Source: Bacteroidota bacterium (GTDB lineage: Bacteria; Bacteroidota; Ignavibacteria; UBA10030; UBA8401). Taken from it: a stretch of 37,819 nt of DNA. The translations under genes and the position numbers were made by a program. Shown piece by piece: positions 2,220-36,117 of the stretch. Every line of letters begins with the position of its first letter. The stretch's first letter is position 1. The stretch is from the NCBI GenBank assembly GCA_019455105.1, contig JACFMZ010000016.1:1-37819 (forward strand). The letters run 5' to 3'. Below the pieces are notes generated by a model that saw nothing but the letters and a program-made list of their open reading frames with translations, did not search any database and was not told the origin of the DNA.

Positions 2220-2343
2220 AAATTAAACTTTTTTATCTTCTATTGTGAGTAGCAATGGAAACTATTTTGTAAATATCATTGTGTGCTTCTAATGATTTCA
2301 GCAAATTTTTAAACATATATGCAGTTGATAAATTGGTTTTTTC

Positions 2344-2796
2344 CTAAACCATTAATAATTTTGCAATTAAATAAAGGAATTTAATACTGTATTCTCCCTT
2401 GTTCGCTAGTTTAGGATATTTTTTTGCTTCAGCATTGGCTTCTTTTTTAAGATTTGAAACATTCAAAAGAAAATTTCTTTTCTTACCAGATTTTATTGGT
2501 TTAATTGTTTTCCATAAATCAATTAAAAAATGTAAGAACTTTTGAGTTTCTTTTTTGTTGTGATGCATTTTTATTATTACATCTACCGCCCAATGTATAT
2601 GTTTAGGGGTTCTAATTCTTGACCAACCTGATTTTGACGTACCATCTCTTTGTCTATATCTAAGCAATAAATCATAATGTGACAAGGAACCCTGATAAAC
2701 GCCTAAAAGATATGTGTCATTTATTTCTATGATAGCCAAAGGTTCAATTCCTTTAACTCTCATATGAGATTTTGTATATTTTTTATTTCTTACCAT
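2344..2796 (-). CDS. Hypothetical protein inside the DpnII-type R-M cassette
   Basis: This 150-residue basic protein is not a family I recognise. Its start codon lies within the last 7 bases of the DpnII-like endonuclease gene (2790-2796), and it shares that gene's AT-rich composition. It is therefore very likely co-translated with it. A striking motif is GWSRIRTPKHIHWAVD (about residues 57-72), rich in Arg, His and Trp and compatible with nucleic-acid contact. The C-terminal half is Lys-rich and probably helical. No signal peptide or membrane segment is seen. An accessory role for the endonuclease or methylase is inference from position only. Confidence 0.75.
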   Translation of the reverse strand: MVRNKKYTKSHMRVKGIEPLAIIEINDTYLLGVYQGSLSHYDLLLRYRQRDGTSKSGWSRIRTPKHIHWAVDVIIKMHHNKKETQKFLHFLIDLWKTIKPIKSGKKRNFLLNVSNLKKEANAEAKKYPKLANKGEYSIKFLYLIAKLLMV

Positions 2797-3632
2797 TCTT
2801 CAACAATTACTTCCACTTTAATTTTCTCAATGAATCTTTCAAGCGTTGTTAAATTATACAAACTTGGAATAATATTATATGCTTCTTCTAATTTATTCTT
2901 TGCTGAAAACCAACCTTGTCCGTCGGTTATCCAAACAAATTCATATTTATCATATTGATTTATTTTGGGTGCAATATCGGAATATGCTCTTGCTGTTTCA
3001 TTCAATTTAGAGCCACTGACATTGTAAAAATTAGTCTCGATCAAATATGTTTTCTTTTTAGTTTTAATAGCAAAATCAAAACGTTTTACGTCTTCACCTA
3101 AACTTTGTATTTCAGGAAAAACAGTATGGTTTACTTCTTTTTTGTAAAATATTTTTGCTTTGTCAAAAATCAGTGAAACCGTCCTTGACATATTTTCTCC
3201 ACCTCTGTTTTTCCGTGCATTCGTATCTAAACCAACTTCAATTCCAAAAACATAATCCACAAGGTTGGTAATATCCTTATTTTTGAAAATTTCTGCTAAA
3301 CCAGTTTCTATAATGTATTCATAAATCCTTTCAACCGAAGTGAAATAAGTTTCAAGTAATACAATTTGTCCTATATTGTTAAATGTCTTTGTGTTTTTGT
3401 TTTTACGAATCGCAATTAAAATATCTAATACTTCAAAAACATTCGGATTTTCTTCGTAAAGTTCTTTTATCGCTTGTTTCAAATTTTCTTTTCCAATCAA
3501 GTAATTCAATTGGTTTAACTTAATTGCAATTTTTCTAACATTACTTTTAATTTTTACGAAGTCCGTGAAATAATCAAGTGTTGCATTAGTTTCTGAAAGT
3601 TGTGATAAGAATATTTTAAACTGTTCTAACAT
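2790..3632 (-). CDS. DpnII/MboI-type restriction endonuclease (predicted GATC specificity)
   Basis: This 280-residue protein carries the conserved blocks of the DpnII/MboI family, which cleaves unmethylated GATC. The blocks are GLDTNARKNRGG (134-145), RFDF followed by YLIETNFYNVSGSKLNE (184-212, the probable PD-(D/E)xK-like catalytic region), and WITDGQGWFSAKNKLEEA (234-251). It starts 4 bases after the Dam-type methylase stop and overlaps the next small gene by 7 bases, so all three are one transcript. GATC sites exist in the window (for example 395-398), so host protection by methylation is required. GATC specificity follows from family membership, not from direct evidence. Confidence 0.92.
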   Translation of the reverse strand: MLEQFKIFLSQLSETNATLDYFTDFVKIKSNVRKIAIKLNQLNYLIGKENLKQAIKELYEENPNVFEVLDILIAIRKNKNTKTFNNIGQIVLLETYFTSVERIYEYIIETGLAEIFKNKDITNLVDYVFGIEVGLDTNARKNRGGENMSRTVSLIFDKAKIFYKKEVNHTVFPEIQSLGEDVKRFDFAIKTKKKTYLIETNFYNVSGSKLNETARAYSDIAPKINQYDKYEFVWITDGQGWFSAKNKLEEAYNIIPSLYNLTTLERFIEKIKVEVIVEEW

Positions 3633-20121: not shown

Positions 20122-23100
20122 TTACCGCATAAGAAGCATTTTTTTCGTTTCAACAAACTGTGTTTCTTCATTAAAAGCAGAATGAATTCTGTAAAAATAG
20201 AGGCCGCTTGCAACCGGCAAACCGGCATCATTTTTTGCATCCCATACTGTTTCGTATGTGCCTATTGACTGGTTGGAAGAAACCAGCGTTCGAATTTTTT
20301 GTCCGAGAAGATTATAAATTCCTACCGTAACATATCCGCTGTGCCCGAGTGTATAACGGATTGTCGTTGATGGATTGAACGGATTCGGATAATTTTGCTG
20401 TAAAGAAAATGTTTGCGGCGTTAAAGGAATTCCTGAAGAATTCTTTTCGGCAAATTCTTTTCTTCCGACAATAATTCTAAAATTGCGGTACGTTTCATTG
20501 CCGGACATTGCAAAATCATACGCACTGTTGAATGGAAGCTTCTGCACTCGTTCCGTGCGCCGGTCAACAAGATAGATGTCAAAATCAGCAGGAAGATTTC
20601 CGAATGATTCCGTAGTAAGATGAACGGTTTTTCCTTTTTCTGCGCATGCAACGGAAAAATCCCAAAAATCTCCTTCATTAGTAATCGGACGCATATCAAC
20701 CGCATACATTCCGGGATTTTTTTCCCATCCCGAACGGTTAAACGAAAGCGTTACATATCCGGACGGCGTTGTCGGCGGTTCGGAAATATCCATCTCATCC
20801 CATTCTTTCTTTGCAAAACGGGAAACACCGATTACGTTATCCTCATCAACCGCTGATGGTGTTTTTACTGCCAGTTGAATTATCCATTCTTTTTCGGCAA
20901 ACGAGTTTTGCAGCTTGTTAAGTTTAGAATGAAAATTTTCTTGTTCAACTGAAACCGAAAGCGGATTGATAAAAATTGTAACGCTGTCTTTGGCTAAATT
21001 TTTTACAAAGTATCCGGTAAACGGCTCCAGTACAAGCGATTGGGATTTAAATCCTTTTCCGTCATATTCCCATAAAATATTTTCCAGCGAATCATGTTTC
21101 GACTGCTGCCAGCTGACAGTATATGGAAACGGATTGCCGATCATGGAAAATCCCGGCGGCACTTTAATCGGATAAAATTCCTGCGAAGGAACAACGGTTG
21201 CGCTTCCGTACGTTACCGCGTGCGATGATTTTGTAATCAGCCAATACGCTTCGCCTCGTTGAAATGTTGAAAAATCCTGCGACGGATATTCTGCATACGC
21301 TCCCTTTTTTGAATTCCATTTGCCGAACAACCGCCATGAAAACGGTCCCGGTTCGCCTAAATCTTTCAACACCGATTTTATTTCCGTGGAAGCAAGATCA
21401 AACGGAATGCTGATCATGCGGTATTGCTCCAGCGGCGTTTTATCCGGCATGGCAACATGATAATTTTCCGTAACGCTGAAAATATTCATTGCAAATAATA
21501 AATTATCTTCGGCAGAAATATTTTGCGCGAACTCTCCGTTTCTCCACATATCGGCATCGCCGAAGACGAGAATTTTTCCCTTGCCGAGAGAGCGCATTGC
21601 CGCAACAACCGGTTGATTGGTTTGATTGGTATCATTTAAGACATGAAATTTATTGTTATCGAAAGTGTGCGCCGCCATTGTTGGTTGATTTGTTTCATCG
21701 GCATATCCTCCGGGCGAAGTCTTCATCAGCGGAACGGCGCCTGATGTTGTTGTAATGCCTGCCGAACCAAACATTACCAGCGAATCAATTCCTTTAAAGA
21801 ACGGATTTCGTGCATCAGCAAATTGTGTTAATAATATATTTAACGGCTCGGCTTGATAATTTCTTTCGGAATCATAAACAGCAGTGCTATTAAGAGAAAT
21901 ACCAACTGCGCTGCCGTCAATGGCGTTCCATGCGGTATCCGAAAGCAGGAGATTGATAATGCTGTTTTCATTCCAGTTGAACGCATTTCCCATTGCAATC
22001 AGCGTGCCGCCGGATTGTACAAATTTTATAAGAGAAGAAATTTCATCTGACGAAAATATTTTTTCAGGAGAAATAAGCAGCACCGCATCAAGTTCCGCAG
22101 GAGAAAAAGCAGAGTCGCCGAAGCGTACCGTGAAACCGCTGCTCTGTAACGATGAAAATAATTTCGTAAATCCAAACAGAGAATCATTTAACGGTACGGA
22201 AGAATGAAAGCGGTCAATAAGAATTTTCTTTTGAATCGGCGCGCTGCTTACCGCACTTCCTTCAACAACAAACGTTACAAGAGGAAATCGCTTGTCGTTT
22301 GTTGAAAAATGTAAAACTGCGGATTGTGTTCCAGCTATCTGAGGCGTAAAGGAAACCTGAATAACGGAATCTTTTCCGGCTTGAATAACAACAAGCGAAT
22401 TCTCCACAGTAAAAGCGCCGAAGAAATTCATTGGCATTTGATATTCTAATACCAGCGGAAGGTATCCTTCGTTGCGGATAATAATATTTACCGATTTTTT
22501 AGAACCAAGCGGAATTGTTCCGAAAGGAATATGAGATGAAGGTGCGCTGAATTTCGGATAGCCAATAACCGAAATCATCACTGTATCGGTAACAGAGCCG
22601 TTACCGTCGGAAACGGCAACAATAATACGATGGTCTCCAATCTCAGAGGCGGAAGGCCTCCATGATAATTTTCCATCGGACGTTAAGAGAGCCGAAGATG
22701 GAGCGCTTATGAATGAAAATGAAACCCGATCGCCGTCAACATCAAATGCTTCATATTGAAAAGTAAAAATACTGTCCACAAGAATTGTTGTATCGGCAGG
22801 AACGTGCGAAAATTCGGGAAGCGAATTAGTCGCCTGCACAACCGTAATGGTAACCTGCTTCTGTGCAAGCCCTCCTTTTCCGTCACTTACCAAAATTAAA
22901 AACGGATGAATTCCGGTTTGTGCTTTCGTCGGAGTCCAGCTTATAACTCCGGAAGCATGATCAATATTCATTCCGGAAGGAGAATTTTGAATTGAATAAA
23001 TCAACGGATCATTATCAGGGTCGGCAGCCGTAACCGTAAAGGAATACGATGTCCCTGCTGTAATTGTGGTATCGTGCGGAACAGAAATAAAATAAGGAAA

Positions 23101-24189
23101 ATTATTGGAGACCGGTTGTTGGATAATAATATTAGCATCTTTCGGCGCAATGGAAAGAACGTCCGGTTCATTTTCATTTACGGTGTATTCTGTTACATTT
23201 AAAGCAGAATTGCCCGAAGCAACCAGCGGCTTAAATTTTAATCGAAATAAAACGCCCGGTCCGGAAATTTCCGCTGCGGAGGCAATTGCAAGGCGTATTG
23301 TTTCATAAGAATCATGAACTTCAAACAGCGCGTTTTGGCTCAGTGTTCCCTGCTGCTGCACTCCAAGAAATTGAATAACGGAGGAATTATAGCGAATTGT
23401 AAGCTGATGAGATAGAATTCCGCTTCCGCTTAAATTTGGAATGAGAAACGGAATCGACAGCGTATCATTCGGAGTAATGGTTGTATCATTAAATCCGGTG
23501 CGAATGTTCCGGACACTTACGGTTATTATTCCGTCGAAATTTTCAAAATCAACTGCTCGTATATCCGTGCTGCCTTTTGAAAGAGCTGAAAATTTTCCTG
23601 TGAGAGAATCTATCGCAGCGACAGCCGGATTAGACGATCTCCATCGATACGGAGGCGTTCCGCCGCTTGCCGCAGCGGTAAATGATTCTCCAATAGCGGC
23701 AAACTGCGGAAGGTTGAAAATTGTAATTGACGGAGGAATAATTGGCGTTATGACGCAGCTCTGTGGAGCAACGGAAATTGTATCGTTTAAATAAATATTA
23801 ACAAGCTCAATCGAAGAAGGATCAACTGCATCCGAAGAAACTTTAACTTGCAAATACATTAAAATTCCGGAATTATGTATCCATTCTGTTCCGTCTGCCA
23901 TTACAACTGGATATTCTCCTTCCGTTATCACTTCCGGTGAGGGCCAGGTTTGCGTCAGCGTTTCATCGGTAAGAACATCAACAAATGTCAGTTGAGAATT
24001 TTCTAAGCGAACGGAGAATTGAACAGAGGAAATTTCATCATCGGAAGTATTAAAAAGATATATCGGCAGTTTAAAAATCTGATTTTGGCGAATTGAAGTA
24101 TCGCGCAGTGCAATTGAAATGTTCTGCTGGGCAAACAGAGACAAAGAAACAATAACCGTAAAAACACTGTACACAAGAAATTTTTTCAT
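20122..24189 (-). CDS. Giant T9SS-exported multidomain surface protein with cohesin-like and GATase-like domains
   Basis: This 1355-residue protein has a signal peptide, MKKFLVYSVFTVIVSLSLFA. Domains in order are approximate. A cohesin-like beta-sandwich spans 23-150 (QNQIFKLPIYLFNTSDDEIS). A BIG2-like Ig domain spans 155-227. A second cohesin-like domain spans 232-355. Two cadherin/Ig-like domains cover 362-450 and 457-543 (both with DGxGxxxxxxxxIxV endings). An ASH-type domain covers 547-648. A DUF4350/class I GATase-like domain covers 654-920 (IKFVQSGGTLIAMGNAF; GKGKILVFGDADMW). A linker region follows. A type A T9SS sorting domain runs from about 1258 to 1355 (LQQNYPNPFNPSTTIRY; ending KKMLLMR). 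It is probably secreted and attached to the outer membrane. It starts 23 bases after the beta-helix gene and is likely co-transcribed. Its exact role is unknown. Confidence 0.88.
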   Translation of the reverse strand: MKKFLVYSVFTVIVSLSLFAQQNISIALRDTSIRQNQIFKLPIYLFNTSDDEISSVQFSVRLENSQLTFVDVLTDETLTQTWPSPEVITEGEYPVVMADGTEWIHNSGILMYLQVKVSSDAVDPSSIELVNIYLNDTISVAPQSCVITPIIPPSITIFNLPQFAAIGESFTAAASGGTPPYRWRSSNPAVAAIDSLTGKFSALSKGSTDIRAVDFENFDGIITVSVRNIRTGFNDTTITPNDTLSIPFLIPNLSGSGILSHQLTIRYNSSVIQFLGVQQQGTLSQNALFEVHDSYETIRLAIASAAEISGPGVLFRLKFKPLVASGNSALNVTEYTVNENEPDVLSIAPKDANIIIQQPVSNNFPYFISVPHDTTITAGTSYSFTVTAADPDNDPLIYSIQNSPSGMNIDHASGVISWTPTKAQTGIHPFLILVSDGKGGLAQKQVTITVVQATNSLPEFSHVPADTTILVDSIFTFQYEAFDVDGDRVSFSFISAPSSALLTSDGKLSWRPSASEIGDHRIIVAVSDGNGSVTDTVMISVIGYPKFSAPSSHIPFGTIPLGSKKSVNIIIRNEGYLPLVLEYQMPMNFFGAFTVENSLVVIQAGKDSVIQVSFTPQIAGTQSAVLHFSTNDKRFPLVTFVVEGSAVSSAPIQKKILIDRFHSSVPLNDSLFGFTKLFSSLQSSGFTVRFGDSAFSPAELDAVLLISPEKIFSSDEISSLIKFVQSGGTLIAMGNAFNWNENSIINLLLSDTAWNAIDGSAVGISLNSTAVYDSERNYQAEPLNILLTQFADARNPFFKGIDSLVMFGSAGITTTSGAVPLMKTSPGGYADETNQPTMAAHTFDNNKFHVLNDTNQTNQPVVAAMRSLGKGKILVFGDADMWRNGEFAQNISAEDNLLFAMNIFSVTENYHVAMPDKTPLEQYRMISIPFDLASTEIKSVLKDLGEPGPFSWRLFGKWNSKKGAYAEYPSQDFSTFQRGEAYWLITKSSHAVTYGSATVVPSQEFYPIKVPPGFSMIGNPFPYTVSWQQSKHDSLENILWEYDGKGFKSQSLVLEPFTGYFVKNLAKDSVTIFINPLSVSVEQENFHSKLNKLQNSFAEKEWIIQLAVKTPSAVDEDNVIGVSRFAKKEWDEMDISEPPTTPSGYVTLSFNRSGWEKNPGMYAVDMRPITNEGDFWDFSVACAEKGKTVHLTTESFGNLPADFDIYLVDRRTERVQKLPFNSAYDFAMSGNETYRNFRIIVGRKEFAEKNSSGIPLTPQTFSLQQNYPNPFNPSTTIRYTLGHSGYVTVGIYNLLGQKIRTLVSSNQSIGTYETVWDAKNDAGLPVASGLYFYRIHSAFNEETQFVETKKMLLMR

Positions 24190-24212: not shown

Positions 24213-27200
24213 TTATTTTAAGAAAAGCATTTTTTTCACTTTGACAAACGGCTCATTGCCGCTGCTTTCCGCTTGAATGCGGTACAGATACATTCCGCTT
24301 GCCGCGCGGCTGCTGCTTTCATCCATTCCGTTCCACGTTACCGAATAAAATCCCGGCGTCTGCACTTCATGCACAAGGCGTTTTATTTCCTGCCCTAAAA
24401 TATTATACACAGTAATGGTAACGGCAGAAGTTTTCGGCAGTTGATATTGTATTGTTGTTGCCGGATTAAACGGATTGGGGAAATTTTGTTCCAATGCAAA
24501 TGTTGCCGGAACAGGAAAAACATTTCTTACATTTAAAATTATTTTCGGCGTTTCGTCGGTAACATCGGTTTCATTTAAAATAAATTTATTCACCGTAAAC
24601 GGAATGGTTTCCTTCCCTTTGGCGGCATCTTTAAGAACAAAGCTGAATTTTGCAATCTCGCCTTCGTTATTCAACGGAGCAGTGCCGGCAAGAGCAACGT
24701 TGGCTTCGCCTTTTGGAAAATAATACGCCAGCACCATGCTGTCTGTATTGGCTCCCTTAGCCACAGAAATCGGCGAAATGTATGTTGTATCGTAACTGAG
24801 TTTAAAACCAATTCCATAAATTGAAGAGGGTTTATTTAAACGAATCGTAAGCTCAAATTCTCCGGCTTTCGTTCCGGGAACAAGTGAAAAATCAAACGCC
24901 GATGCCGATTGAGTTTCCATGGAAAGTTTTCCTAGCGCAGGAAACTCGTTAATGATTCCGACCACATAACGGAGAATATACGAAGCATCGAGCGGGCTTA
25001 TGGTGGAATCGCCGGTAACATCCGCAACGATAGATTGTATTGGTGTAAATGACCGCTCGCCGATAAAGTTTTGCAGAACCAACGATGCATCGTAGGCGGT
25101 AATCAATCCGTTTCCGCTGACATCTCCGTAAAGATAAGAACTGCTTGATGATAAAAACGGCTCATACAAAACAACTCCGCTGCCGGTAATGTTAATTTCA
25201 TCTCCTTTTCCTTGAGGATTGAGAATGTCTCCGGTAAGAACCAACGGACCTGAGGGATCGCCCCAGTAATTATTTCGCGCATCAAGAGTATCCATAGAGT
25301 AAATATCAAATTCTAAACCGTATAAAGAATTTTGAAAAATATTACAATAGGCAATTTGTGAAGGGTAATCATTGATACTCAGAGAACGGGACGCGCCATA
25401 CTGTATGATTGTGGCAGCAATATTTTTTTTCGCCGCCAAGCTTTCATCTGGATATTGAAAAAAACTGATTCCGTTTTTATTATGGTGAATATCGGAAGAA
25501 GTAATGGAGACGGAAGAATTAAAAATTAATATTCCGCTATTGTTGCTGTAGGAAACAACGCTTGAATCTACGGTTACACTCGATGAACTAATAATTAATT
25601 CGCCGGTATTCTCATAACTCCCGTATTTGATAATCACATTTCGCAAAATGGAATACCTGGAATACACAAATGAAATGGCATCCCAATCTCCCGGTGCCGG
25701 AGCCGTGCCAGACGAATCATTATTTGAATCGCCGCCGTAATCATCATCGTGGAAAGAGGTAAAGATAATCTTTTTATTTTTTTCTCCATTGGCAATGAGC
25801 GTTCCTACAACATAAATTCCGGATACAGCTTCATTATCGGCAGTACGAATTTTTACAATTGTTCCGGGAACAATTTCTACCTCCTTATCGCTGTCTATAT
25901 AGAGATCATTCACAACAAAAAGAACGGGCGAAATCATTGTGGCAGGAAAGGAAGAACCAAGCTTTCCTTCTATAAACCCTTGTGCGGCAATAACATTATC
26001 ATACATGTTGCCGGAAATTACATTGCCGAAATAGACATTGCCGAGCGCATTTCCTGTTCCTTCTAAACTTACCTGCCCGGTCAGTAAAATAGGAATTCTA
26101 TTTCCATAAAGAGAATCATTTAAAATATACGCGCGTGAAGAAATAAGCCCGACGTTCGTATTATTTGAAATAACATTGTTGGCAAACAAAATAAGCGTAT
26201 CAATATTATCATTGAGTGCGGTAAAATAGATACCGTTATTGCTGTTTGAGCAAATTGTATTATTCGTTATCAATGCAGGGGCGGAATTTTGATCAACAAA
26301 AATGCCGTTCATTCCATTTTCGGAAATTGCGGAATAAGAAATTTCATATAATTTAACGCCGCCCGGAACCTTCACGCCGTTGCCGGCATTGTGAGTTATT
26401 GTGCATCGGCGCAAGCGAAGAGAATTTTCATTTCCGCCGTATGAATAGACACCATCGTTATTATTATATGAGAACTCAGAACTATCCATCGTAAGATTTG
26501 AATAACTAATTTCTATACCGTATGTATTGGAATACTGCGATTTTATATTTGAAAAAAGAACGGGAGCAGTAGGAAGCGAACAATAAATTTGGCCGCCGTA
26601 ATTTCCTCCGCCGTATCGAAATTCACAATAGCGGATACGCGACTTTTCAGCCGAATAATTAAAATAAATATTTCCCCAATCGCCCGGTTGGGAGGCAAGG
26701 GAATCGGTTCCGTTAGTATGCCCGCCGGCAGAATTATCTCTCCAAGATGTAAAAACAATCGGCGCTGTCTTTGTTCCTTCTGCAATGAGCGTTCCGTCAA
26801 TAGTAAAGCTCAGCGCAACTCCGGCAGGTGATTTCCAAAACTTCATTGTGCTGCCGGGATGAATGGTTAGCGTATCCCCGCCAAAAAGAAAAATATTTTC
26901 AATAACGAGATAGGCATGAAGAGATCCCATTGCACGAGGAAAGGAATTCGTGAGAACTCCTTTTAATGATTTATTGCGGAGAGCAATAACATTGTTAACA
27001 ATATTTTGTTCAATAATATTCCCGTCGTTATACGTGCTGTCTAGATAAGAATTTCCCAGCCTGCCCCAAACGCCAAGCGGATAGGTATTCCATTTTATCA
27101 CATTATCCACCAATCGGGCGGCTGAGGATAAAATTCCGATCCCTCCCTGATACTGCACACGATTTTCGATAAATTGAATAGTGTTTGTATCAAGCGTTGA

Positions 27201-28070
27201 ACTATTTATTTGAAATCCGTCGAGAGAATTATATTCAACAATATTATTCCGGTAGGTCTGCGGCAGCGAGCCGTTTTCTACGACAACACCGTTTCTGCCG
27301 TTATTACTTATTATGGAATTAGTAATCTCCCGAAACATCGAATTATCCACCGCGCTGAGACCGTCAAAAGTATTCCAACGAAAAGTGCTGTTCCGAATGG
27401 TGACATCAGCAACAGGCGTATAGCCGGAAATGTATATTCCGTACGATAAATTACTATCTGCGCGGATGCTGTCGAATATTGCCGTGAAACCGTAACCGCG
27501 AATTCCCATTGAACCGGAATATTTAAAGGTGAGGTTTTTTTGCGGCAGCTTCATTGTTTGCGCATTAATAGACAACATTCCATTGCCGCCGAGACCGCCG
27601 TAAAAGAATTGACAAAACTCAAACCGGCTGGAATCCGCGCTCCCTTGCAGTTGAATATTCTGCCAGTCACCGGGTAAGGGATATGACAGATCGGAATCTC
27701 CGTTTGAATCGCCTCCGTAGCTGTCATCCTTTTCCGATGTGAAAATAATCAGTGAATCCGTCGTTCCGACAGCGCGCAAGGTTCCGTTAACGGTCAGCGA
27801 AGTATTGGGAGTAAATTTAAGAATTGTTCCGGGTAAAATCGTAAGAACTCCGGGGGGTGAAACGGTAATATTTGACGTAATTCGATACACCGTATCGGGA
27901 AAAAGAATTCCTGTTACAGCACCGGAAATATTTTTTACCGGTTTGTTTGGTGCGTAACGTGCCCGTGAAACAATCTTACCATTGCTGCCGGCGGTTTGAG
28001 AGACAGACGTTGTTACAACGCTTACCATAGAGATAAACATTACCGCACAAATTTGTACACAACGTTTCAT
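24213..28070 (-). CDS. T9SS-exported beta-helix protein with dockerin and cohesin-like domains
   Basis: This 1285-residue protein has an N-terminal signal (about 1-25). The bulk (about 55-970) is right-handed parallel beta-helix with NNGI/NSNNG-type rungs. It is interrupted by three copies of a module containing a PGTxxKF-like turn, an IxFTS strand and PGDWxxI (around residues 60-160, 385-500 and 720-830). A dockerin-like pair follows at about 980-1045: GDVSGNGLITAYDAS and ADVTGDSTISPLDAS, each with Ca-loop Asp/Asn spacing. A cohesin-like domain lies at about 1055-1180, and the T9SS sorting domain (EQNFPNPFNPATTIQYQLP) is at 1193-1285. Beta-helices of this type occur in polysaccharide-active or adhesive surface proteins. 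No catalytic residues could be assigned. Confidence 0.88.
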   Translation of the reverse strand: MKRCVQICAVMFISMVSVVTTSVSQTAGSNGKIVSRARYAPNKPVKNISGAVTGILFPDTVYRITSNITVSPPGVLTILPGTILKFTPNTSLTVNGTLRAVGTTDSLIIFTSEKDDSYGGDSNGDSDLSYPLPGDWQNIQLQGSADSSRFEFCQFFYGGLGGNGMLSINAQTMKLPQKNLTFKYSGSMGIRGYGFTAIFDSIRADSNLSYGIYISGYTPVADVTIRNSTFRWNTFDGLSAVDNSMFREITNSIISNNGRNGVVVENGSLPQTYRNNIVEYNSLDGFQINSSTLDTNTIQFIENRVQYQGGIGILSSAARLVDNVIKWNTYPLGVWGRLGNSYLDSTYNDGNIIEQNIVNNVIALRNKSLKGVLTNSFPRAMGSLHAYLVIENIFLFGGDTLTIHPGSTMKFWKSPAGVALSFTIDGTLIAEGTKTAPIVFTSWRDNSAGGHTNGTDSLASQPGDWGNIYFNYSAEKSRIRYCEFRYGGGNYGGQIYCSLPTAPVLFSNIKSQYSNTYGIEISYSNLTMDSSEFSYNNNDGVYSYGGNENSLRLRRCTITHNAGNGVKVPGGVKLYEISYSAISENGMNGIFVDQNSAPALITNNTICSNSNNGIYFTALNDNIDTLILFANNVISNNTNVGLISSRAYILNDSLYGNRIPILLTGQVSLEGTGNALGNVYFGNVISGNMYDNVIAAQGFIEGKLGSSFPATMISPVLFVVNDLYIDSDKEVEIVPGTIVKIRTADNEAVSGIYVVGTLIANGEKNKKIIFTSFHDDDYGGDSNNDSSGTAPAPGDWDAISFVYSRYSILRNVIIKYGSYENTGELIISSSSVTVDSSVVSYSNNSGILIFNSSVSITSSDIHHNKNGISFFQYPDESLAAKKNIAATIIQYGASRSLSINDYPSQIAYCNIFQNSLYGLEFDIYSMDTLDARNNYWGDPSGPLVLTGDILNPQGKGDEINITGSGVVLYEPFLSSSSSYLYGDVSGNGLITAYDASLVLQNFIGERSFTPIQSIVADVTGDSTISPLDASYILRYVVGIINEFPALGKLSMETQSASAFDFSLVPGTKAGEFELTIRLNKPSSIYGIGFKLSYDTTYISPISVAKGANTDSMVLAYYFPKGEANVALAGTAPLNNEGEIAKFSFVLKDAAKGKETIPFTVNKFILNETDVTDETPKIILNVRNVFPVPATFALEQNFPNPFNPATTIQYQLPKTSAVTITVYNILGQEIKRLVHEVQTPGFYSVTWNGMDESSSRAASGMYLYRIQAESSGNEPFVKVKKMLFLK

Positions 28071-28281: not shown

Positions 28282-28839
28282 TTATGCTCCTGCAAAAACA
28301 AAATCCCGGTCAATGGAGTTAAACTCTTTTCCTTGAAGATCTTTTGGAGATACAATCGGCTCGGAAACACGCCAATCAATCTGTAATGCTGCGTCATTAA
28401 AAAGTATTGAGCGTTCGTGTTCTTTACTGTAATAGGCAGTACATTTATACGAAAACAGCACATCATCCGAAAGAACAGAAAACCCGTGCGCAAAGCCGGG
28501 AGGAATCCATAGTTGAATATGATTTTCATCAGAAAGTTCAACGGAAAAATATTTTCCAAATGTCGGCGAACCGAAACGGATATCTACCGCCACATCTAAA
28601 ACTGCGCCGCGAAGAACCTGACAGAGTTTTCCTTGTGCGCAGGCGCCGACCTGATAATGCAGCCCGCGGATAGTATTTTTTACGGAACGGGAAATATTAT
28701 CCTGAACAAATTCAACGGCTCCGGCCTGCGCCGTGAAAAGATCTTTTCGAAACGCTTCAAAAAAATATCCCCGCTCATCCCGAAATATTTTCGGTTCAAC
28801 AATAAGCAGTCCTTGAATCGGCGTGGTGGTGATTTTCAT
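28282..28839 (-). CDS. rmlC: dTDP-4-dehydrorhamnose 3,5-epimerase
   Basis: This 185-residue cupin enzyme converts dTDP-4-keto-6-deoxyglucose to dTDP-4-keto-rhamnose on the way to dTDP-L-rhamnose for surface polysaccharide. Conserved blocks are FRDERGYFFEAF (19-30), RGLHYQ (58-63, with catalytic H61), GSPTFGKYFSVELSDEN (90-106), LWIPPGFAHGF (110-120) and the YKCT tyrosine at about 131. Its start is 6 bases after the rmlA stop, so it is in the same transcript. rmlB and rmlD are not in this window and must lie elsewhere. Confidence 0.96.
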   Translation of the reverse strand: MKITTTPIQGLLIVEPKIFRDERGYFFEAFRKDLFTAQAGAVEFVQDNISRSVKNTIRGLHYQVGACAQGKLCQVLRGAVLDVAVDIRFGSPTFGKYFSVELSDENHIQLWIPPGFAHGFSVLSDDVLFSYKCTAYYSKEHERSILFNDAALQIDWRVSEPIVSPKDLQGKEFNSIDRDFVFAGA

Positions 28840-28845
28840 TGAAGG

Positions 28846-29709
28846 CTAGTCCTCTTGAAAAATTTTTTCAAGATATTCCCGATACATTGATTTCGGCAGC
28901 GAGCCGACCAATGCCGTAAAACTCTCTTTTGAAATAAACTTTTTCAGATAGGCAATTTCTTCCAAGCAGGCAACTTTCAATCCCTGGCGGTCTTCAATAA
29001 CACCGAAAAAGTTTGATGCCTGCAGCAACGCTTCAGGCGTACCGGTATCCAGCCACGCGACGCCTCGTCCAACCTTTTCCACGCGCAATTTTTTCTGTTT
29101 GAGATACACATTATTTACATCGGTAATTTCCAATTCGCCCCGAGGCGACGGCGTAATAGATTTGGCGATGGGGACAACGTTATTATCATAAACGTATAAA
29201 CCCGGAACGGCATAATTCGATTTCGGCTGTTTCGGTTTTTCTTCAATAGAAAGCGCATTTCCTTCCTTATCAAAATCCACCACGCCGTACCGCTCGGGAT
29301 CATTAACACGATAGCCGAAAATTGTTGCGCCCTTTTTTTGCTGCAGCGCGCGGTAAAAGAAATCCAGATTACCGTAAAAAATATTATCGCCGAGAATCAG
29401 CGTTACGCCGTCGCTGCCGATAAAGTTTTCGCCGAGAATAAATGCTTCGGCAATTCCGTTCGGCGCATCCTGCACAACATATTCAAAACGAACGCCGAGA
29501 TGAGAGCCGTCTCCGAGTAACTGCCGGTACAATGGAATGGTTTCTTTGTTTGAAATAATTAAAATTTCTTTTATGCCGCCGAGCATTAAGACCGAAATGG
29601 GATAATAAATTAACGGCTTATCATAAATAACAACTAATTGTTTGCTGTACACTTTTGTTATGGGATACAACCGCGAACCCGAACCGCCGGCTAAGACTAT
29701 TCCTTTCAT
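28846..29709 (-). CDS. rmlA: Glucose-1-phosphate thymidylyltransferase
   Basis: This 287-residue enzyme makes dTDP-glucose from dTTP and glucose-1-phosphate, the first step of dTDP-rhamnose synthesis. The nucleotide-binding loop is LAGGSGSRLYPITK (6-19). YDKPLIYYP (29-37), QDAPNGIAEAFILGE (79-93) and LGDNIFYG (105-112) are also conserved. The usual SKQLLPVYDKP block reads SKQLVVIYDKP here, a small departure from the commonest sequence. It lies 9 bases after the REC-HPt gene and 6 before rmlC. Confidence 0.95.
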   Translation of the reverse strand: MKGIVLAGGSGSRLYPITKVYSKQLVVIYDKPLIYYPISVLMLGGIKEILIISNKETIPLYRQLLGDGSHLGVRFEYVVQDAPNGIAEAFILGENFIGSDGVTLILGDNIFYGNLDFFYRALQQKKGATIFGYRVNDPERYGVVDFDKEGNALSIEEKPKQPKSNYAVPGLYVYDNNVVPIAKSITPSPRGELEITDVNNVYLKQKKLRVEKVGRGVAWLDTGTPEALLQASNFFGVIEDRQGLKVACLEEIAYLKKFISKESFTALVGSLPKSMYREYLEKIFQED

Positions 29710-29718
29710 GCAATTCCT

Positions 29719-30477
29719 TTATTCTGATAAATATGTTTTCGTAAATGCTTTCTTTGCTTCTGCCATTGCCGATTGAAGTTTTTGAAATATTTCTTCAATT
29801 CCCTGCAACTCTGCAGAAATTCCTTTTTGTTCAATCTGCACGCTCAGCGCCGTAACTTTTTTTGCTCCGATACTGCCGGCGCCTCCTTTTAATTTATGCG
29901 CAGCATGATGAACTCCTTCAGCATCACGGCAGGCAATTGCCTTTTCAATTTCTTGAGCAGACTGTTCAGATTCCTGAAAATAAATTCTTATCAATTCTTT
30001 CAGCAGTTCAGAATCTTCTAATTCCATTAATTCGTCAATTCTTCGCTGATCGATAATTTCACCCGAAGTATTCATAGTCTCCACCTTTGGAATTGTTTTT
30101 AAAGCAAGAAACCGATGCAGCGCCGCTTGAATAAATTCTTTTCGTACTGGTTTTTCAAGATACTCATTCATTCCTGCTTCATAACATTGCTGTTGAATTC
30201 CCGCCGTGGTGTTTGCCGTAACGGCAATAATGAACGGACTTTTTTTACTGCCGTTCATTTTACGAATTTCCTGCGCCGCTTCAATGCCTCCCATTTCCGG
30301 CATCTGAAGATCCATAAACACCACATCATATTCATTTCGGCGAAGTTCTTCCACAGCTTCTTTTCCGTTCTGTACGCATAACGAATTTAGGCTGAGCGAA
30401 GAAAGCATTTTTTCCAATACTTTCTGATTAATCGGATTATCATCGGCAATTAAAATCCGCAGCGATGGATCAATCAT
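29719..30477 (-). CDS. Orphan receiver-HPt phosphorelay protein
   Basis: This 252-residue protein has an N-terminal receiver (about 5-125: IADDNPINQKV, phosphoacceptor D56 in FMDLQMPEMGG, LEKPVRKE) and a C-terminal HPt domain (about 145-245) with AHKLKGGAGSIGA, H194 being the phosphotransfer histidine. This is the usual tail of a hybrid histidine kinase, but here it stands alone with no kinase or DNA-binding domain. The ATG overlaps the DUF4175 gene stop by 4 bases (30474-30477), so the two are translationally coupled. It probably relays phosphate between a kinase and a regulator encoded elsewhere. Confidence 0.9.
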   Translation of the reverse strand: MIDPSLRILIADDNPINQKVLEKMLSSLSLNSLCVQNGKEAVEELRRNEYDVVFMDLQMPEMGGIEAAQEIRKMNGSKKSPFIIAVTANTTAGIQQQCYEAGMNEYLEKPVRKEFIQAALHRFLALKTIPKVETMNTSGEIIDQRRIDELMELEDSELLKELIRIYFQESEQSAQEIEKAIACRDAEGVHHAAHKLKGGAGSIGAKKVTALSVQIEQKGISAELQGIEEIFQKLQSAMAEAKKAFTKTYLSE

Positions 30478-33400
30478 TCTTTCACACTGTTTGTTTTTTG
30501 AAGAGCTTCATAATATTTACGAATATATTCAAGATAATCTTTTGAATATCCAGCTTCAACTGCTCTCTGTAAATCGTACGACCGGTCATTTCCTTTTTCG
30601 CTCTGTTCTAATTCGGCAGGGCTTTTCCGCGCCGGCGTCGTTCCGCTGAGCGCCTTTCGTTTCTGTTCAAAATCTCTTTCCCGTACGGAATTCTGCGCTT
30701 GCAGCATGCGGGAAAGAATCCGTTCCTGCTGCCGGACGGTGTTCGCATCAATATTATTCTGCTCAAGTTTTTCAACAACTTCTTTCATTTCATCGGAAAT
30801 CTTTTTCAAATCGCCGAGCACATTCTCTTTGTTCCGGCTTTGTTCCGCTTCGCGTTGTAATTGCTCCATAGATTTTCGCACGGCATCCTGCTGCTTTGCC
30901 AGCCGCCCCATTTCCTGAAGCTGCTGCTGTGTCATCCCTTCCTGATTTCCCATTTGCTGCGTCTGCATATTTATCTGCATTTGCTGCTGCGCCATATTGC
31001 GAAGCTGCTGCAGCAACGAACCGCCTCCCTGCCCTCCCTGCTGCTGCATTTGCTGCATGGCACCCTGCATTAAGGCAGCCGCTTTGTTCAACGACGCCAT
31101 TGCTTCTCCCTGAAAAGAACTGGCATAATTTCCATTCCGGCTTTCTATTCCCTGCATGGATTGCTGCATTGTTCCCATCGCTTTGCCGATTTGCTTTCCC
31201 ATTTCCGGCGACACTGCAAATGATTTCTGCGAAAGCTCCATCAGTTGATTGGCAATATTCGCCAGGTCACCATGAATATTCTGCTGCTGAACGGCAATAT
31301 CCTTAAATTGCTGTGAAGAATAATCAAGCTGCTGCGTTTGGTTTTTTAACTGCTCTTCTTTCTGTGAAAGACGCAGCAGATCCTTCATCGCTTTCTGCAG
31401 TCCGCTCATCGTTTCCTGCATTTGATTGCTTAAGAGCTGCTCTTGAAGCGCGGACATTTCATTCGCCATCTGCTGAAGCCCCTGCATTGACTGCTGCTGC
31501 GACTGCATTGCCTGTTGCGGCTGCGTGGAACGAAGCTGCTGTGAGCTTTGCTTCATTGATTGTTCCATAGATTTATTTTCCGCCGCTTCTTCGGTTTTTT
31601 GCAGCTGATCCATCGGCATTTCTTTGGGAAACTCTTCCATCTTTTCACGAAGCGATTTCATTTCTTCCTGCACGTTGTTCAGCTCTTTCGAAATATCTTC
31701 CTGCTTCCGCGCAAGGTCATTTCCTTTTTGCGCATCGTTTTCTTTTAAATTTTTTGTTTCCTTCTGAAGCTCTTCCTGTTTCTTCATCAGCTCTTCAGCG
31801 CGTTTTTTCATCTCGTCCACTTTTTGTTCAATCTGAATGCGCTTCAATAAATTTAAGGTCCGCTCAATGCTGGAACGGAACTGCTCTTCGGAAAACTGCG
31901 CCTGCTCCATTGCCTGCCGCAGCTGTTCGGAATTCATCTGCTGCATTGCCTGCTGCATTCTTTTCATTGCTTCACGAAACTCCGGCGTATTCATTTCCTG
32001 CAATGTTTTTTGCAGTTCCAAATATTTTTCCAGTGTTTCGGAAGAGAGCGTATTATTTTTATTTAACTGTTCCGTCATTTCATTAACGGTTTTGTTCACC
32101 TCATCAATCTTTTTCTGAATGTCATCGTATTTTTTTGCAATCTCTTCCGCTTTTTTCTGCTTCTGCCAGTCCAATTGCTTGTTTCGTTTCATATCGCGGT
32201 GTAATTCTTCTAAATCTTTTTTCAAATCTTCCGCCGCCTTAAGCGATTCTTCCAGCGTTTTTAATGAATTGTCGTGGCTCTTTTCCGCATCGGCAAAAAC
32301 TTCTTCCAGCGAAGGAAGACGAAGAAGATACGAAGCGCTTTTGCCTGCTTTGGGTCCGTTTACATTGTCGTTGTCATAAACAGCCGCGTAGTATTCAACA
32401 ATATCTTCCGGCGCCAAATGAAGCGAAGAAAGGTTCCATTCGTACGAAATAATCTGCTGAAGCGAAGTTTTATCCTGCAGCGGAATTTCCAAGCGCTGCT
32501 CTTTTTCTTCCTGAGAATATTTTGACTGAACAAGTTTGTAAAAAAGCGCCAGACCGCTGAAGCCGAAATCATCTTCAATTTTTATCTGCAGCGGAAGCGA
32601 TGAATTATCGGTAACATCAATATTTTTTCCCGGAAACAAAATTGACACGCTCGGCTCCGCATCCGGAAGAATGGTAATTTTATATTCAATAAGATTGGAA
32701 TTCATTAATCCCTGCGCATCTTCCAATTCTATGTAATATGATGTCGGCGAGTCTGCCGTAAACGATGCCTGCAGATGCGTTCCGTTTTTTTTCAGCGCTG
32801 TTTCGCTTCCATCTTTAAAAACAATTGCCGCAGAAGAAATTTCTTTGCTGGGAAGAATATTCCATATAATTCGCGAGCCGGCAAGAGCCGAAACATCGCC
32901 GGTGTTTTCATCCAGCGTCTGCGGTGCAAGACGGGAATATTTCGGCGGCGTAACGGTAACGGATAAAGTTCGAACAAACGGCCGCTCGGTAACGGCAAGC
33001 TGATATTCATTCGACTGAACATCTTCCGCCGAGGCGCTGTACCGAAGCGAAGAATTGAGTGAAGTAAAATGATAGCGGAATATTCCTGAAGAATCTTTTT
33101 GTAATTTTATTTTTTCGTTTTTTTCAATTCCTTCTTCTCGGTAGTAAAGAAATACTTCCGAAGGAAGTTTCTTTTGCCCCGCTGCGGATGTAAGAGGAAC
33201 AATGCGGACGGAAATTTCCGCAGATTCTCCCTTCACAATTTCTTTGTTGCCGGGAAAAACTTGCAGCATAAACGGAAGCGGCGGATGAAATTCCTGCATA
33301 AAATGAAACACTCTGTACGAGGCGTTTGCCAGCGGAGAATTGGGAACAAGCATCCCGATAACAAGAGCAAGAGAGAGCACCGCTCCCTGCCGGAATAATA

Positions 33401-33887
33401 TCGTTGCCGGCTTAAAAGATACCACCTCCGTAAAATGCAATGCGGATGCCGATTCGGAAAAGCGCTCAACGGCGACTTCGATAAATTCTTTTGAAACGGA
33501 ATAGCGTTCCTCTTTTCCGTAGATTTTTCCTAAATCCATAATATTCTGCAGTTGGTCGTGAACTTCAGGAAAATGTCTGCCGATTATTGCATTTATCTCC
33601 CGCTCGGAGATGCCGGTGAGAAGATGAAATTTTCTTGCCGCCGGAATTCCCGCATTCCACAAAACGGTAAGAAGACTGACGCCGATGAAAATAAAAAAGA
33701 GAACCGTCCGCACGGCGGCAGAAAATAAAAAGAGCGTTTCACTGAGCAGAAAAATTGAAAAAAGAAGAAGAACAAACAATATAGAAACCAATATCCCCCG
33801 CACAATCTGTTCACGATAATAACGCGAACGAACTTCTTCAATGCGATGCGCAAGAGTATTAATGATATGGGTTGTTGATTCCGACAT
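30474..33887 (-). CDS. DUF4175-family membrane protein with long Gln/Met-rich coiled coil
   Basis: This 1137-residue protein has two N-terminal transmembrane segments (about 29-50 and 55-76) and a third at about 166-185. A beta-rich periplasmic part (about 200-520) with Ig-like stretches follows. From about 530 the protein is an extended coiled coil, then a very Gln/Met/Asn-rich stretch (about 750-1040) with GGQGGGS. DUF4175 proteins are large envelope proteins common in Bacteroidota and relatives, with no assigned reaction. The gene sits 12 bases after DUF4159 and overlaps the REC-HPt gene by 4 bases. A structural or signalling envelope role is inference. Confidence 0.88.
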   Translation of the reverse strand: MSESTTHIINTLAHRIEEVRSRYYREQIVRGILVSILFVLLLFSIFLLSETLFLFSAAVRTVLFFIFIGVSLLTVLWNAGIPAARKFHLLTGISEREINAIIGRHFPEVHDQLQNIMDLGKIYGKEERYSVSKEFIEVAVERFSESASALHFTEVVSFKPATILFRQGAVLSLALVIGMLVPNSPLANASYRVFHFMQEFHPPLPFMLQVFPGNKEIVKGESAEISVRIVPLTSAAGQKKLPSEVFLYYREEGIEKNEKIKLQKDSSGIFRYHFTSLNSSLRYSASAEDVQSNEYQLAVTERPFVRTLSVTVTPPKYSRLAPQTLDENTGDVSALAGSRIIWNILPSKEISSAAIVFKDGSETALKKNGTHLQASFTADSPTSYYIELEDAQGLMNSNLIEYKITILPDAEPSVSILFPGKNIDVTDNSSLPLQIKIEDDFGFSGLALFYKLVQSKYSQEEKEQRLEIPLQDKTSLQQIISYEWNLSSLHLAPEDIVEYYAAVYDNDNVNGPKAGKSASYLLRLPSLEEVFADAEKSHDNSLKTLEESLKAAEDLKKDLEELHRDMKRNKQLDWQKQKKAEEIAKKYDDIQKKIDEVNKTVNEMTEQLNKNNTLSSETLEKYLELQKTLQEMNTPEFREAMKRMQQAMQQMNSEQLRQAMEQAQFSEEQFRSSIERTLNLLKRIQIEQKVDEMKKRAEELMKKQEELQKETKNLKENDAQKGNDLARKQEDISKELNNVQEEMKSLREKMEEFPKEMPMDQLQKTEEAAENKSMEQSMKQSSQQLRSTQPQQAMQSQQQSMQGLQQMANEMSALQEQLLSNQMQETMSGLQKAMKDLLRLSQKEEQLKNQTQQLDYSSQQFKDIAVQQQNIHGDLANIANQLMELSQKSFAVSPEMGKQIGKAMGTMQQSMQGIESRNGNYASSFQGEAMASLNKAAALMQGAMQQMQQQGGQGGGSLLQQLRNMAQQQMQINMQTQQMGNQEGMTQQQLQEMGRLAKQQDAVRKSMEQLQREAEQSRNKENVLGDLKKISDEMKEVVEKLEQNNIDANTVRQQERILSRMLQAQNSVRERDFEQKRKALSGTTPARKSPAELEQSEKGNDRSYDLQRAVEAGYSKDYLEYIRKYYEALQKTNSVKE

Positions 33888-33899
33888 GAAAATTTTTTG

Positions 33900-34574
33900 C
33901 TATTGGCTGAGCGCCCAGATAATAATATTGGTTCCGAATCGGAGCGCTTCTTCCCGTTTCTCCGGCGGATCTTTATGCACTTCAGGATCTGCCCAGCCGT
34001 CGCTCGGATTGGATTCGTACGTATAATAAACAACCAATCTTCCCTTATAAAAAATACCGAATCCCTGCGGCGGCTTTCCGTCGTGCTCATGAGTTTTCGG
34101 AACGCCGTTTGGAAAATTATAAAAACATGAATATAAGCCGTAACTAAACGGCAGCTCAACAAGTTCAGTTTCGGGAAAAACTTTTTTTATCTCGCGCCGG
34201 AACGACTTATCCATTCCGTAATCATCATCCGCATACAGAAAGCCGCCGTTTTCAAGATAGGTGCGAAGTCGGTTGACCTCATAATCCGAAAAGGAAATAT
34301 TACCGTGCCCCGTCATAAAAATCATCGGATAAGAAAAAAAATTGTCGCTGGAAATTTCTACAAATTCATACTTCGGATCAGTATCAATACCTGCATTTTG
34401 CTTTGCAAATTTTAACAGATTGACTTCTGCCGAAGGATCGTTATACCAATCGCCGCCGCCGGAATATTTTAGACGAGCAATGCGAAACTGCGAATCAATC
34501 CTTTTAGTTTGAGCAACAAGCAGGAATTGAGAAGTACATACAAAAAATATGTAAAGCGAAAAAATAAATTTCAT
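33900..34574 (-). CDS. DUF4159-domain exported protein
   Basis: This 224-residue protein is read from the ATG at 34572-34574. It then begins with a normal signal peptide, MKFIFSLYIFFVCTSQFLLVAQ. A longer reading from a TTG at 34664 adds 30 odd hydrophobic residues and is rejected. The mature part matches DUF4159: FRIARLKYSGGGDWYNDP, MIFMTGHGNISFSDYEVNRL, GGFLYADDDYGMDKSFRREI and an FGTNIIIWAL end. The fold resembles GATase-like domains, without known activity. DUF4159 and DUF4175 genes are often neighbours in this phylum. It heads the five-gene minus-strand run ending at rmlC. Confidence 0.85.
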   Translation of the reverse strand: MKFIFSLYIFFVCTSQFLLVAQTKRIDSQFRIARLKYSGGGDWYNDPSAEVNLLKFAKQNAGIDTDPKYEFVEISSDNFFSYPMIFMTGHGNISFSDYEVNRLRTYLENGGFLYADDDYGMDKSFRREIKKVFPETELVELPFSYGLYSCFYNFPNGVPKTHEHDGKPPQGFGIFYKGRLVVYYTYESNPSDGWADPEVHKDPPEKREEALRFGTNIIIWALSQ

Positions 34575-34693
34575 AGAAGAAATTAGCGAAAAAGTGAGGA
34601 AAAACAAAAAGGTATATTGCGCATTGAACGAACAAAAGCATAACCGGAAGAAAAGAAGACGCAAATATTAATAATTTCTAAAATTTTTTTTCT

Positions 34694-34812: not shown

Positions 34813-36117
34813 ATGAAATATCGTGTTGTACTGTTTTCTTCTATCTTCTTACTTCCAATTCTTACCTTGAGTCAATCAAACAATGCATTGAAATTTAAAA
34901 GCGTAAATTTCGATTACGTTGAAATTAATTATTCTTCCGATATAAATCCTTCCGGTAATTTTACTGTAGAATTTTGGGCAAAAACAAACGGCATTCCGCT
35001 GGAGAATCCAGGCTCACCTTATTCATCACGATTTTCAACAGAAGGATTGAAAGGATTTGTCATTTATGTCGATAATACCAGCCACTGGTTATTTCAATTT
35101 GGAAATGGAGTCGGCTGGGAGTCGGGTATAATCGGCGATGTTACGGACTTAACGTGGACACATATTGCTGTTGTTCTAAACAATGGTACATTTGAATATT
35201 ATGTGAACGGCACCTACACCAATCTTACCGACGGAAGAAATTTTGTTGCAAACCCAAGTAATGTCGCTAGAATTGGTGCTGGTGATTACGACGGATCTCC
35301 GGAATATTATTTTAACGGTGAAATAGATGATGTTCGTTTTTGGAATGTTGCACGAACAGCACAACAAATAAGCGACAACAAAGATAATCCTCTCTCCTTA
35401 CCCCAATCGGGGCTTGTTTCATATTGGAAGTTAGACGAAAGTGGTTCATCAATAACTGCTTCCGATGCCGCCGGAAGTAACGACGGAATGCTTTATAATT
35501 TCGCCTTCGACGGAGGGGACGGCTGGGTTGCCAGCAATGCGCTGCTTCCGGTAGAGCTGACTTCGTTTTCGGCACAGAGAAACGGCAACAGCGTAAATCT
35601 TGTTTGGAACACCGCTACCGAAACTAATAATTTTGGTTTTGAAATTGAGAAAAAACAACTTTTACCTTCGGCAGCAAACAGAGAATTTACAAAAATCGGT
35701 TTTGTAAAAGGAACGGGAACCAGCGCTGTGCCTCAGTCGTACTCTTTTGTAGATGCCGATGCGGAAGGAACGGTTCTTTACCGGTTAAAACAAATTGACC
35801 GCGACGGAAAATTTTCTTACTCCGGCACGATAGAAGTAAACGGAGCGGCACCGGCTAAATTTTCTCTTGAGCAAAATTATCCGAACCCGTTTAATCCTTC
35901 TACGGTTTTCACTTTCCAAATTCCGCAGGATGGAAATGTTTCATTAAAAGTGTATGACAATCTCGGACGTGAAGCCGCCATAGTAATGAATGAATTTAAA
36001 ACCGCCGGTCAATACAGCGTTGCGTTTAACGCCTCGCAGTTCGCCAGTGGTATGTATTACTATATGCTGAAATCCGGCAGTTTTCAATCGGTAAAAAAGA
36101 TGTTGTTAATGAAGTAA
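34813..36117 (+). CDS. LamG-domain T9SS-exported protein
   Basis: This 434-residue protein has a signal peptide, MKYRVVLFSSIFLLPILTLS. A LamG/concanavalin-like domain spans about 25-215 (FTVEFWAKTNG, WTHIAVVLNNGTFEYYVNG, YFNGEIDDVRFWNVARTAQQI). A linker domain typical of this group begins LLPVELTSFSAQRNG (about 244-258) and contains NLVWNTATETNNFGFEIEK. The type A T9SS sorting domain (EQNYPNPFNPSTVFTF; ending KKMLLMK) is at about 352-434. It is probably displayed on the cell surface, binding carbohydrate or protein. The start is supported by GGAGG 6 bases upstream. It is monocistronic, with a terminator after it. Confidence 0.9.
   Translation: MKYRVVLFSSIFLLPILTLSQSNNALKFKSVNFDYVEINYSSDINPSGNFTVEFWAKTNGIPLENPGSPYSSRFSTEGLKGFVIYVDNTSHWLFQFGNGVGWESGIIGDVTDLTWTHIAVVLNNGTFEYYVNGTYTNLTDGRNFVANPSNVARIGAGDYDGSPEYYFNGEIDDVRFWNVARTAQQISDNKDNPLSLPQSGLVSYWKLDESGSSITASDAAGSNDGMLYNFAFDGGDGWVASNALLPVELTSFSAQRNGNSVNLVWNTATETNNFGFEIEKKQLLPSAANREFTKIGFVKGTGTSAVPQSYSFVDADAEGTVLYRLKQIDRDGKFSYSGTIEVNGAAPAKFSLEQNYPNPFNPSTVFTFQIPQDGNVSLKVYDNLGREAAIVMNEFKTAGQYSVAFNASQFASGMYYYMLKSGSFQSVKKMLLMK

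Follow-up and report, generated by a model that had tools for sequence, protein, structure and literature searches.

A recurrent gene pair of T9SS-tailed beta-helix/dockerin and multi-cohesin proteins in Bacteroidota and other bacteria, and its possible surface assembly

Two adjacent genes in a 37,819-nucleotide stretch of DNA from a Bacteroidota bacterium (contig JACFMZ010000016.1 of assembly GCA_019455105.1, hereafter the window) encode a beta-helix protein with a dockerin and a cohesin (P1) and a protein with two cohesins (P2), both with the C-terminal tails of type IX secretion system (T9SS) cargo. The pair recurs in adjacent position in many related bacteria, and we therefore presume that P1 and P2 probably lock together outside the cell, probably for a purpose other than the digestion of cellulose. 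We put at about 0.6 the probability that the P1 dockerin binds the cohesins of P2 and that the two proteins thereby form an assembly of their own, dependent on calcium and exported by the T9SS.

Results

P1 (1285 aa; 24213..28070, reverse strand, as are all the P1, P2 and Rml features below; defined by its open reading frame (ORF), Pfam and NCBIfam) consists, from the N- to the C-terminus, of a right-handed beta-helix region, a type I dockerin, a cohesin and a T9SS tail. The beta-helix takes up about residues 40-945 (25236..27953; PF13229, 81.4 bits in five stretches), the dockerin residues 981-1036 (24963..25130; PF00404, 35.2 bits), with conserved ligand positions in calcium loop 1 (residues 983-994, 25089..25124) and loop 2 (residues 1017-1028, 24987..25022), the cohesin residues 1068-1176 (24543..24869; PF00963, 31.2 bits), and the sorting domain residues 1191-1285 (24216..24500; TIGR04183 over its cut-off, 120 bits with our own profile). 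P1 is shorter than most of its relatives (1285 aa vs about 1750-2000 aa), and its beta-helix region is shorter as well. An enzyme role of the beta-helix gained no support: Pfam found no lyase family and residues 1-957 had no PDB sequence match at E <= 0.001; a self-BLAST for helix blocks listed the identity match and nothing further.

RmlC and RmlA type genes for a dTDP-sugar epimerase and a nucleotidyltransferase (28282..29709; Pfam and synteny) lie upstream of P1, and the same synteny was present in seven other distinct contigs (13 loci listed, six of them duplicate contigs). This synteny hints at a link of P1-P2 with a surface polysaccharide; in studied species, such a polysaccharide anchors T9SS cargo. 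Elsewhere in the window, genes for tandem DUF4175 and DUF4159 proteins (30474-34664) lie upstream of those for the response regulator-Hpt protein and RmlA/RmlC, 34813-36117 encodes a T9SS-tailed protein of 434 aa that has a laminin-G-like domain, and a DNA methylase and a DpnII restriction endonuclease at 1443-3632 make up a DpnII-type restriction-modification system.

P2 (1355 aa; 20122..24189; ORF, Pfam and NCBIfam), located 23 nt downstream of P1, carries cohesin A at residues 28-137 (23779..24108; Pfam; Z 14.9 to 5nrk_A over model 1-131) and cohesin B at residues 234-340 (23170..23490; Pfam; Z 14.7 to 6kge_A over model 209-327), the two being separated by a Big_2 domain (residues 181-217, 23539..23649; PF02368, 28.6 bits). 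Behind these lie a cadherin-like/putative Ig pair (about residues 360-541, 22567..23112; PF05345 and PF17963), a HYDIN/ASH-type Ig domain (residues 548-643, 22261..22548; PF22544, 42.2 bits), a DUF4350 domain (residues 668-901, 21487..22188; PF14258, 46.6 bits) and the T9SS sorting domain (residues 1261-1355, 20125..20409; TIGR04183 over its cut-off, 125 bits with our own profile). The cohesins together scored 51.9 bits with PF00963 over two stretches, each place alone also exceeding the cut-off, and a carbohydrate-binding module (CBM) was absent from the P2 matches that Pfam gave at E values up to 1. The P2 proteins of relatives range from about 660 to 2400 aa, and the two long ones that were scanned have different numbers of cadherin-like/He_PIG repeats after their cohesins. 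A beta-helix protein with a dockerin pair and then a cohesin-like domain at 24530-25140, next to a 1355-residue protein with two cohesin-like domains, had been proposed in a sequence-only reading of the window, and both the domain content and the coordinates were right.

That reading had also ended both proteins in T9SS sorting signals. Indeed, both tails exceeded the TIGR04183 cut-off of 23 bits in NCBIfam (P1 31.6 bits, P2 30.4 bits); with Pfam PF18962 they scored 22.6 and 23.7 bits, short of its cut-off of 27. The genome from which the window comes has 92 type A tail matches, P1 and P2 among these, and a PorU sortase on its contig C55 (954.7 bits, cut-off 420); a second, partial PorU-like match (G000:C143:236-2455) scored 204 bits, below that cut-off. 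The N-termini of P1 and P2 are hydrophobic as judged by eye. Taken together, the C-terminal tails and the PorU in the genome support the predicted T9SS export of both proteins. Our own tail profile failed to detect a T9SS tail that Pfam finds in the P2 of one relative (L069), so that the absence of a tail among relatives by our own profile is not evidence.

All cohesin and dockerin matches of P1 and P2 exceeded the curated Pfam cut-offs (Dockerin_1, PF00404, 22.9 bits; Cohesin, PF00963, 24.1 bits). An AlphaFold2 model of P1 residues 965-1189, made from an alignment with 37 relatives, had a mean pLDDT of 88 and a pTM of 0.84, with dockerin pLDDT mostly above 90. By VIA-align its dockerin matched dockerin 4uyp_B (Z 14.4, 1.2 Å over 71 residues) and its cohesin matched cohesin 4uyq_A (Z 14.5, 2.2 Å over 125 residues), and Foldseek ranks 1-40 were every one a cohesin or a cohesin-containing chain (top 2xdh, E 5.1e-8). 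The P2 model (AlphaFold2, residues 20-346, three domains; pLDDT 92.8, pTM 0.69) gave a mixed Foldseek list of cohesins together with intimin, S-layer, integrin and other Ig-type proteins; in VIA-align its top 30 rows were cohesins, covering cohesins A and B with Z 13-15, and by sequence the P2 profile matched 2xdh (E 2.8e-9, the best cohesin match) and several cellulosomal cohesins. The models confirm real cohesin and dockerin folds in the modules of P1 and P2, which bears out the cohesin-like domains of the earlier reading.

The calcium loops of the dockerin were compared across 38 aligned P1 dockerins, window sequence included, and their ligands are kept. Thus neither of the two outcomes that the earlier reading had named as contradicting it, a missing cohesin fold or dockerin loops devoid of calcium-binding residues, was observed. 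Loop 1 has Asp1, Ser/Thr3, Asn/Asp5 and Asp12 each in 38/38, and loop 2 has Asp/Asn1 in 37/38, Asp/Asn5 in 28/38 (the weakest position) and Asp12 in 38/38. At positions 10-11, the recognition residues in clostridial dockerins, repeat 1 has Ala in 36/38 and Tyr/Phe in 38/38, and repeat 2 has Ala in 29/38 and Tyr/Phe in 27/38; unlike most relatives, the window dockerin has Pro-Leu there in repeat 2. The two repeats share the same residue at position 10 in 31/38 and at position 11 in 21/38. Near-symmetric repeats are a property of dual-binding dockerins.

In the genome of the window, the five cohesin and two dockerin matches over the cut-offs all fall within two gene pairs, P1-P2 and a pair on contig C180, so the arrangement is more than chance. 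The paralogous C180 pair (L031:6177-12605) encodes a 967-aa dockerin-cohesin protein and a 1150-aa cohesin protein, both T9SS-tailed, and pairs similar to it occur at two further loci (L048 and L018). A locus scan with the P1 dockerin-cohesin segment only (12-row alignment), and hence blind to P2, returned 80 loci, 52 of which had a dockerin ORF followed by a cohesin ORF within 700 nt (57 ORF pairs); the 28 loci with no pair hold mostly more distant dockerin proteins, many from Cloacimonadota. Consecutive dockerin-ended ORFs, with no cohesin match within the fetched stretch, were seen at five loci from Cloacimonadota MAGs (L091, L098, L116, L120 and L122). Among the best-scoring 39 of the 80 loci (L051-L089), 38 had the dockerin ORF and then the cohesin ORF, the exception (L070) being a contig that stops 306 nt past P1. 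The next ORF carried exactly three cohesins in 34 of these 38, usually near residues 30, 240 and 450; the remaining four comprised a one-cohesin ORF followed by a three-cohesin ORF (L058), an ORF with two cohesins (L060), and one plus two cohesins spread over two ORFs (L074 and L082). The gap between P1 and P2 had a median of 27 nt in 39 three-cohesin pairs. According to the records, the pair occurs in Ignavibacteriae/Ignavibacteria, Balneolaceae, Paludibacter and other Bacteroidales, Kryptoniota, Chlorobiota, Neomarinimicrobiota and others, and looser versions occur in Acidobacteriota (L101 and L123), that of L123 having three cohesins and coming from the cultured Sulfidibacter corallicola M133.

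Some P2-like proteins differ in their layout. In a MAG named Deferribacteres (L092:10926-17645), a 2239-aa protein with eight cohesin matches lies beside a P1-like protein. In an FCB-group MAG (L083:1596-3572), the T9SS tail of other P2 proteins is replaced by a Dockerin_1 match (23.1 bits, cut-off 22.9), an arrangement like that of a primary scaffoldin. By eye, dockerin-like P2 ends were noted at six loci (L083, L084, L077, L078, L101 and L123); of the five that were scanned, Pfam confirmed L083 but not L084, L077, L101 and L123, so that dockerin-ended P2 proteins are only a lead for some lineages.

To assess co-occurrence, the phylum was sampled evenly with 198 genomes of at least 90% completeness. 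Fifteen genes scored 195 bits or more with the P1 profile (next score 138), and 14 genes scored 224 bits or more with the P2 profile; other proteins reached at most 87 bits with the latter, the intermediate rows being second matches within a P2 already counted. Both families share the same 12 of the 198 genomes and all 14 P2 genes adjoin a P1, with one P1 gene (G002:C43) lacking a P2. The hypergeometric probability of this coincidence is 1.9e-19 if genomes are taken as independent, a value that overstates the significance because the genomes are related. With weaker members included (E <= 1e-12), the P1 profile reached 39 genomes and the P2 profile 30, and the overlap was less neat.

A survey of the window's genome plus 40 relatives found dockerins in 32 of the 41 genomes and cohesins in 32. 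For 145 cohesins, a dockerin was present only in the same ORF (53), only in another same-strand ORF within 10 kb (71), in both (1) or in neither (20), so that 125/145 had one at one or both of these places, where about 1% is expected at random by a rough estimate. Conversely, of 81 dockerins, 47 had a cohesin in the same ORF and 34 a cohesin ORF nearby, 27 of them having both, and another 27 had neither. The 20 cohesins and 27 dockerins that lack a partner module speak against the proposed assembly. Twenty genomes had a dockerin ORF next to an ORF with at least two cohesins, and in three of these (G003, G008 and G011) the P1 dockerin was the only dockerin at E <= 1e-3; several relatives had 2 to 6 dockerin matches per genome. 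The single detected dockerin of some genomes narrows the question of its partner to one or two binding tests.

A cohesin tree (159 rows, 124 columns, many forks unresolved) split the P1 cohesins from those of P2, and the first, second and third cohesins of P2 were largely apart (6 label changes vs 86 when shuffled). Cohesin A of the window sits among the second cohesins of relatives (97/92 support), and the rows nearest to cohesin B are third cohesins; judging from these placements, the P2 of the window has probably lost the first cohesin. Cohesins A and B of the window both have long branches (1.56 and 1.40 vs a median end branch of 0.24), which could reflect loss of function or a changed partner. 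The idea that the window dockerin and P2 cohesins diverged jointly and the P1 cohesin did not was dropped, as the helix and the Big_2 spacer diverged too.

Over nine segments, the dockerin was the most conserved (mean distance 0.61; others 1.07-2.31) and the P1 cohesin the least (2.31). Co-evolution was assessed by distance correlation on 44 pairs, kept from 54 once near-identical ones were removed. With the background removed, the partial r with dockerin distances was 0.22-0.24 for the P2 cohesins, 0.30 for the P1 cohesin, 0.37 for the control Ig spacer Big1 and -0.13 for the tail. Every segment but the tail outperformed 999 permutations, and the test therefore picks out no partner, the P2 cohesins doing no better than the P1 cohesin or the Ig spacer. 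The sequence-only reading had held a non-cellulosomal, surface-anchored cohesin-dockerin assembly to be possible: the exported pair itself is well supported by domains, folds, tails, PorU and, most of all, the conserved adjacency of P1 and P2, which that reading could not have seen, and the partner of the dockerin was not singled out by distance correlation in these 44 pairs.

Discussion

We propose that P1 and P2 would be exported by Sec and then by the type IX system, and that their C-terminal tails would leave both at the surface. There the P1 dockerin would plug into the cohesins of P2, and with two cohesins in the window and three in most relatives, a single P2 could gather two or three long P1 beta-helix rods. 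The P1 cohesin, next to the dockerin, may either steady it or take another dockerin, and a second dockerin bound there would lengthen or cross-link the array. From these data we infer the binding, its calcium dependence, the cohesin used, the stoichiometry and an adhesive or structural role in a surface layer; the dockerin is placed on the P2 cohesins because the genes are paired, because it is the sole detected dockerin in G003, G008 and G011, and because it is the most conserved segment.

The dockerin might instead act on P1's own cohesin, as an intramolecular clasp or in head-to-tail polymers, with P2 co-expressed but separate, which we consider unlikely. At 37 of the 39 best-scoring loci P1 has the two domains side by side, and the higher pTM of the two-domain P1 model (0.84 vs 0.69 for the three-domain P2 model) suggests a fixed placement of dockerin and cohesin, hence a possible intramolecular contact; in type II X-dockerins, an X module steadies the dockerin. 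However, the P1 cohesin is the least conserved segment and the dockerin the most conserved one, this reading leaves the co-occurrence of P1 and P2 unexplained, and at three loci (L081, L093 and L107) the dockerin and a three-cohesin P2 are kept with no P1 cohesin match by our own profile. Retention of the calcium loops and of the Ala-Tyr/Phe recognition positions, similar in both repeats, speaks against cohesin-type domains as mere Ig-like spacers and the dockerin as a calcium-stabilised linker, with no binding between them, and so do the concentration of dockerins beside cohesins in the 41 genomes and the finding that 34 of 38 P2 proteins carry exactly three cohesins; we regard these roles as quite improbable, although cohesin-type modules have been reported, according to part of a source, in dockerin-free proteins (TMEM132).

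It is very improbable that P2 is a general cellulosome-like scaffold for many dockerin proteins, P1 being one among these: in the window's genome no more than two dockerin proteins exceed the cut-off, Pfam assigns an enzyme domain to neither of them, and three pair-bearing relatives have the P1 dockerin alone, even though several relatives have more dockerin matches and the excerpts of a report on Ca. Stygibacter describe dockerin enzymes with a T9SS-anchored scaffoldin (PMC8542988). Membership in a cellulosome was likewise rejected, given the two dockerin proteins with no enzyme domain and the P2 with no CBM by Pfam; one cellulosomal feature is present, namely several cohesins on one protein.

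The dedicated assembly of the P1 dockerin with the P2 cohesins thus remains our preferred reading. An extension of it, in which P1 rods are joined end to end by plug and socket, and a tri-cohesin P2 gathers three of them into a calcium-clamped extracellular lattice, is doubtful; if true, it would mean that members of the FCB group build a protein matrix or fibre layer by cohesin-dockerin chemistry unrelated to the digestion of polysaccharide.

Comparison with known systems

Where cohesins and dockerins occur outside cellulosomes, the usual description is of scattered modules whose use is unclear, and such non-cellulosomal modules were reportedly found in all domains of life by Peer et al. in 2009. 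In P1-P2 they form a recurrent gene pair with a mostly constant cohesin number across several lineages, which also offers new modules for protein engineering. The best cohesin match of both the P1 cohesin (Foldseek) and the P2 profile (sequence) is the 2xdh cohesin of Archaeoglobus fulgidus, and both systems are non-cellulosomal. In A. fulgidus, neighbouring genes are involved, one product having both cohesin and dockerin modules; that system is archaeal, unlike the bacterial P1-P2, and to our knowledge has no beta-helix, T9SS tail or three-cohesin scaffold. Non-cellulosomal folds from glycoside hydrolases of Clostridium perfringens (2vo8, 2jh2 and 2w1n) were also among the top structural matches. 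These cohesins are modules of secreted enzymes, and we know of no scaffold pair for them.

The clostridial cellulosome has the same folds as P1-P2 (Z about 12-15 against modules of CipA and ScaB/ScaC) and likewise combines multi-cohesin and dockerin proteins; P1-P2 differ in having no glycoside hydrolase or CBM and in T9SS export, not SLH or sortase anchoring. According to excerpts of one source, earlier archaeal cases came without multi-cohesin scaffoldins and ANME archaea have multi-cohesin proteins (PMC9012536), and excerpts of another report the cellulases of Melioribacter roseus as dockerin-free (PMC3534657). Earlier publications already describe non-cellulosomal cohesin-dockerin pairs and a T9SS-anchored scaffoldin; our searches of the open-licence PMC literature found no description of a conserved beta-helix/tri-cohesin pair. 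Like P1-P2, Ca. Stygibacter (Cloacimonadota) has a scaffoldin-like cohesin protein with a T9SS-type C-terminus for surface attachment, together with dockerin proteins, and T9SS-anchored scaffolding was proposed for its putative cellulosome-like complex, as described in the excerpted parts of the report (PMC8542988). Unlike P1-P2, its scaffoldin has 3,755 aa with CBMs and its dockerins are on GH18, GH57 and peptidases; as far as these excerpts go, P1-P2 are set apart by having no CBM or enzyme, by a dedicated beta-helix partner and by their organization as a conserved two-gene unit.
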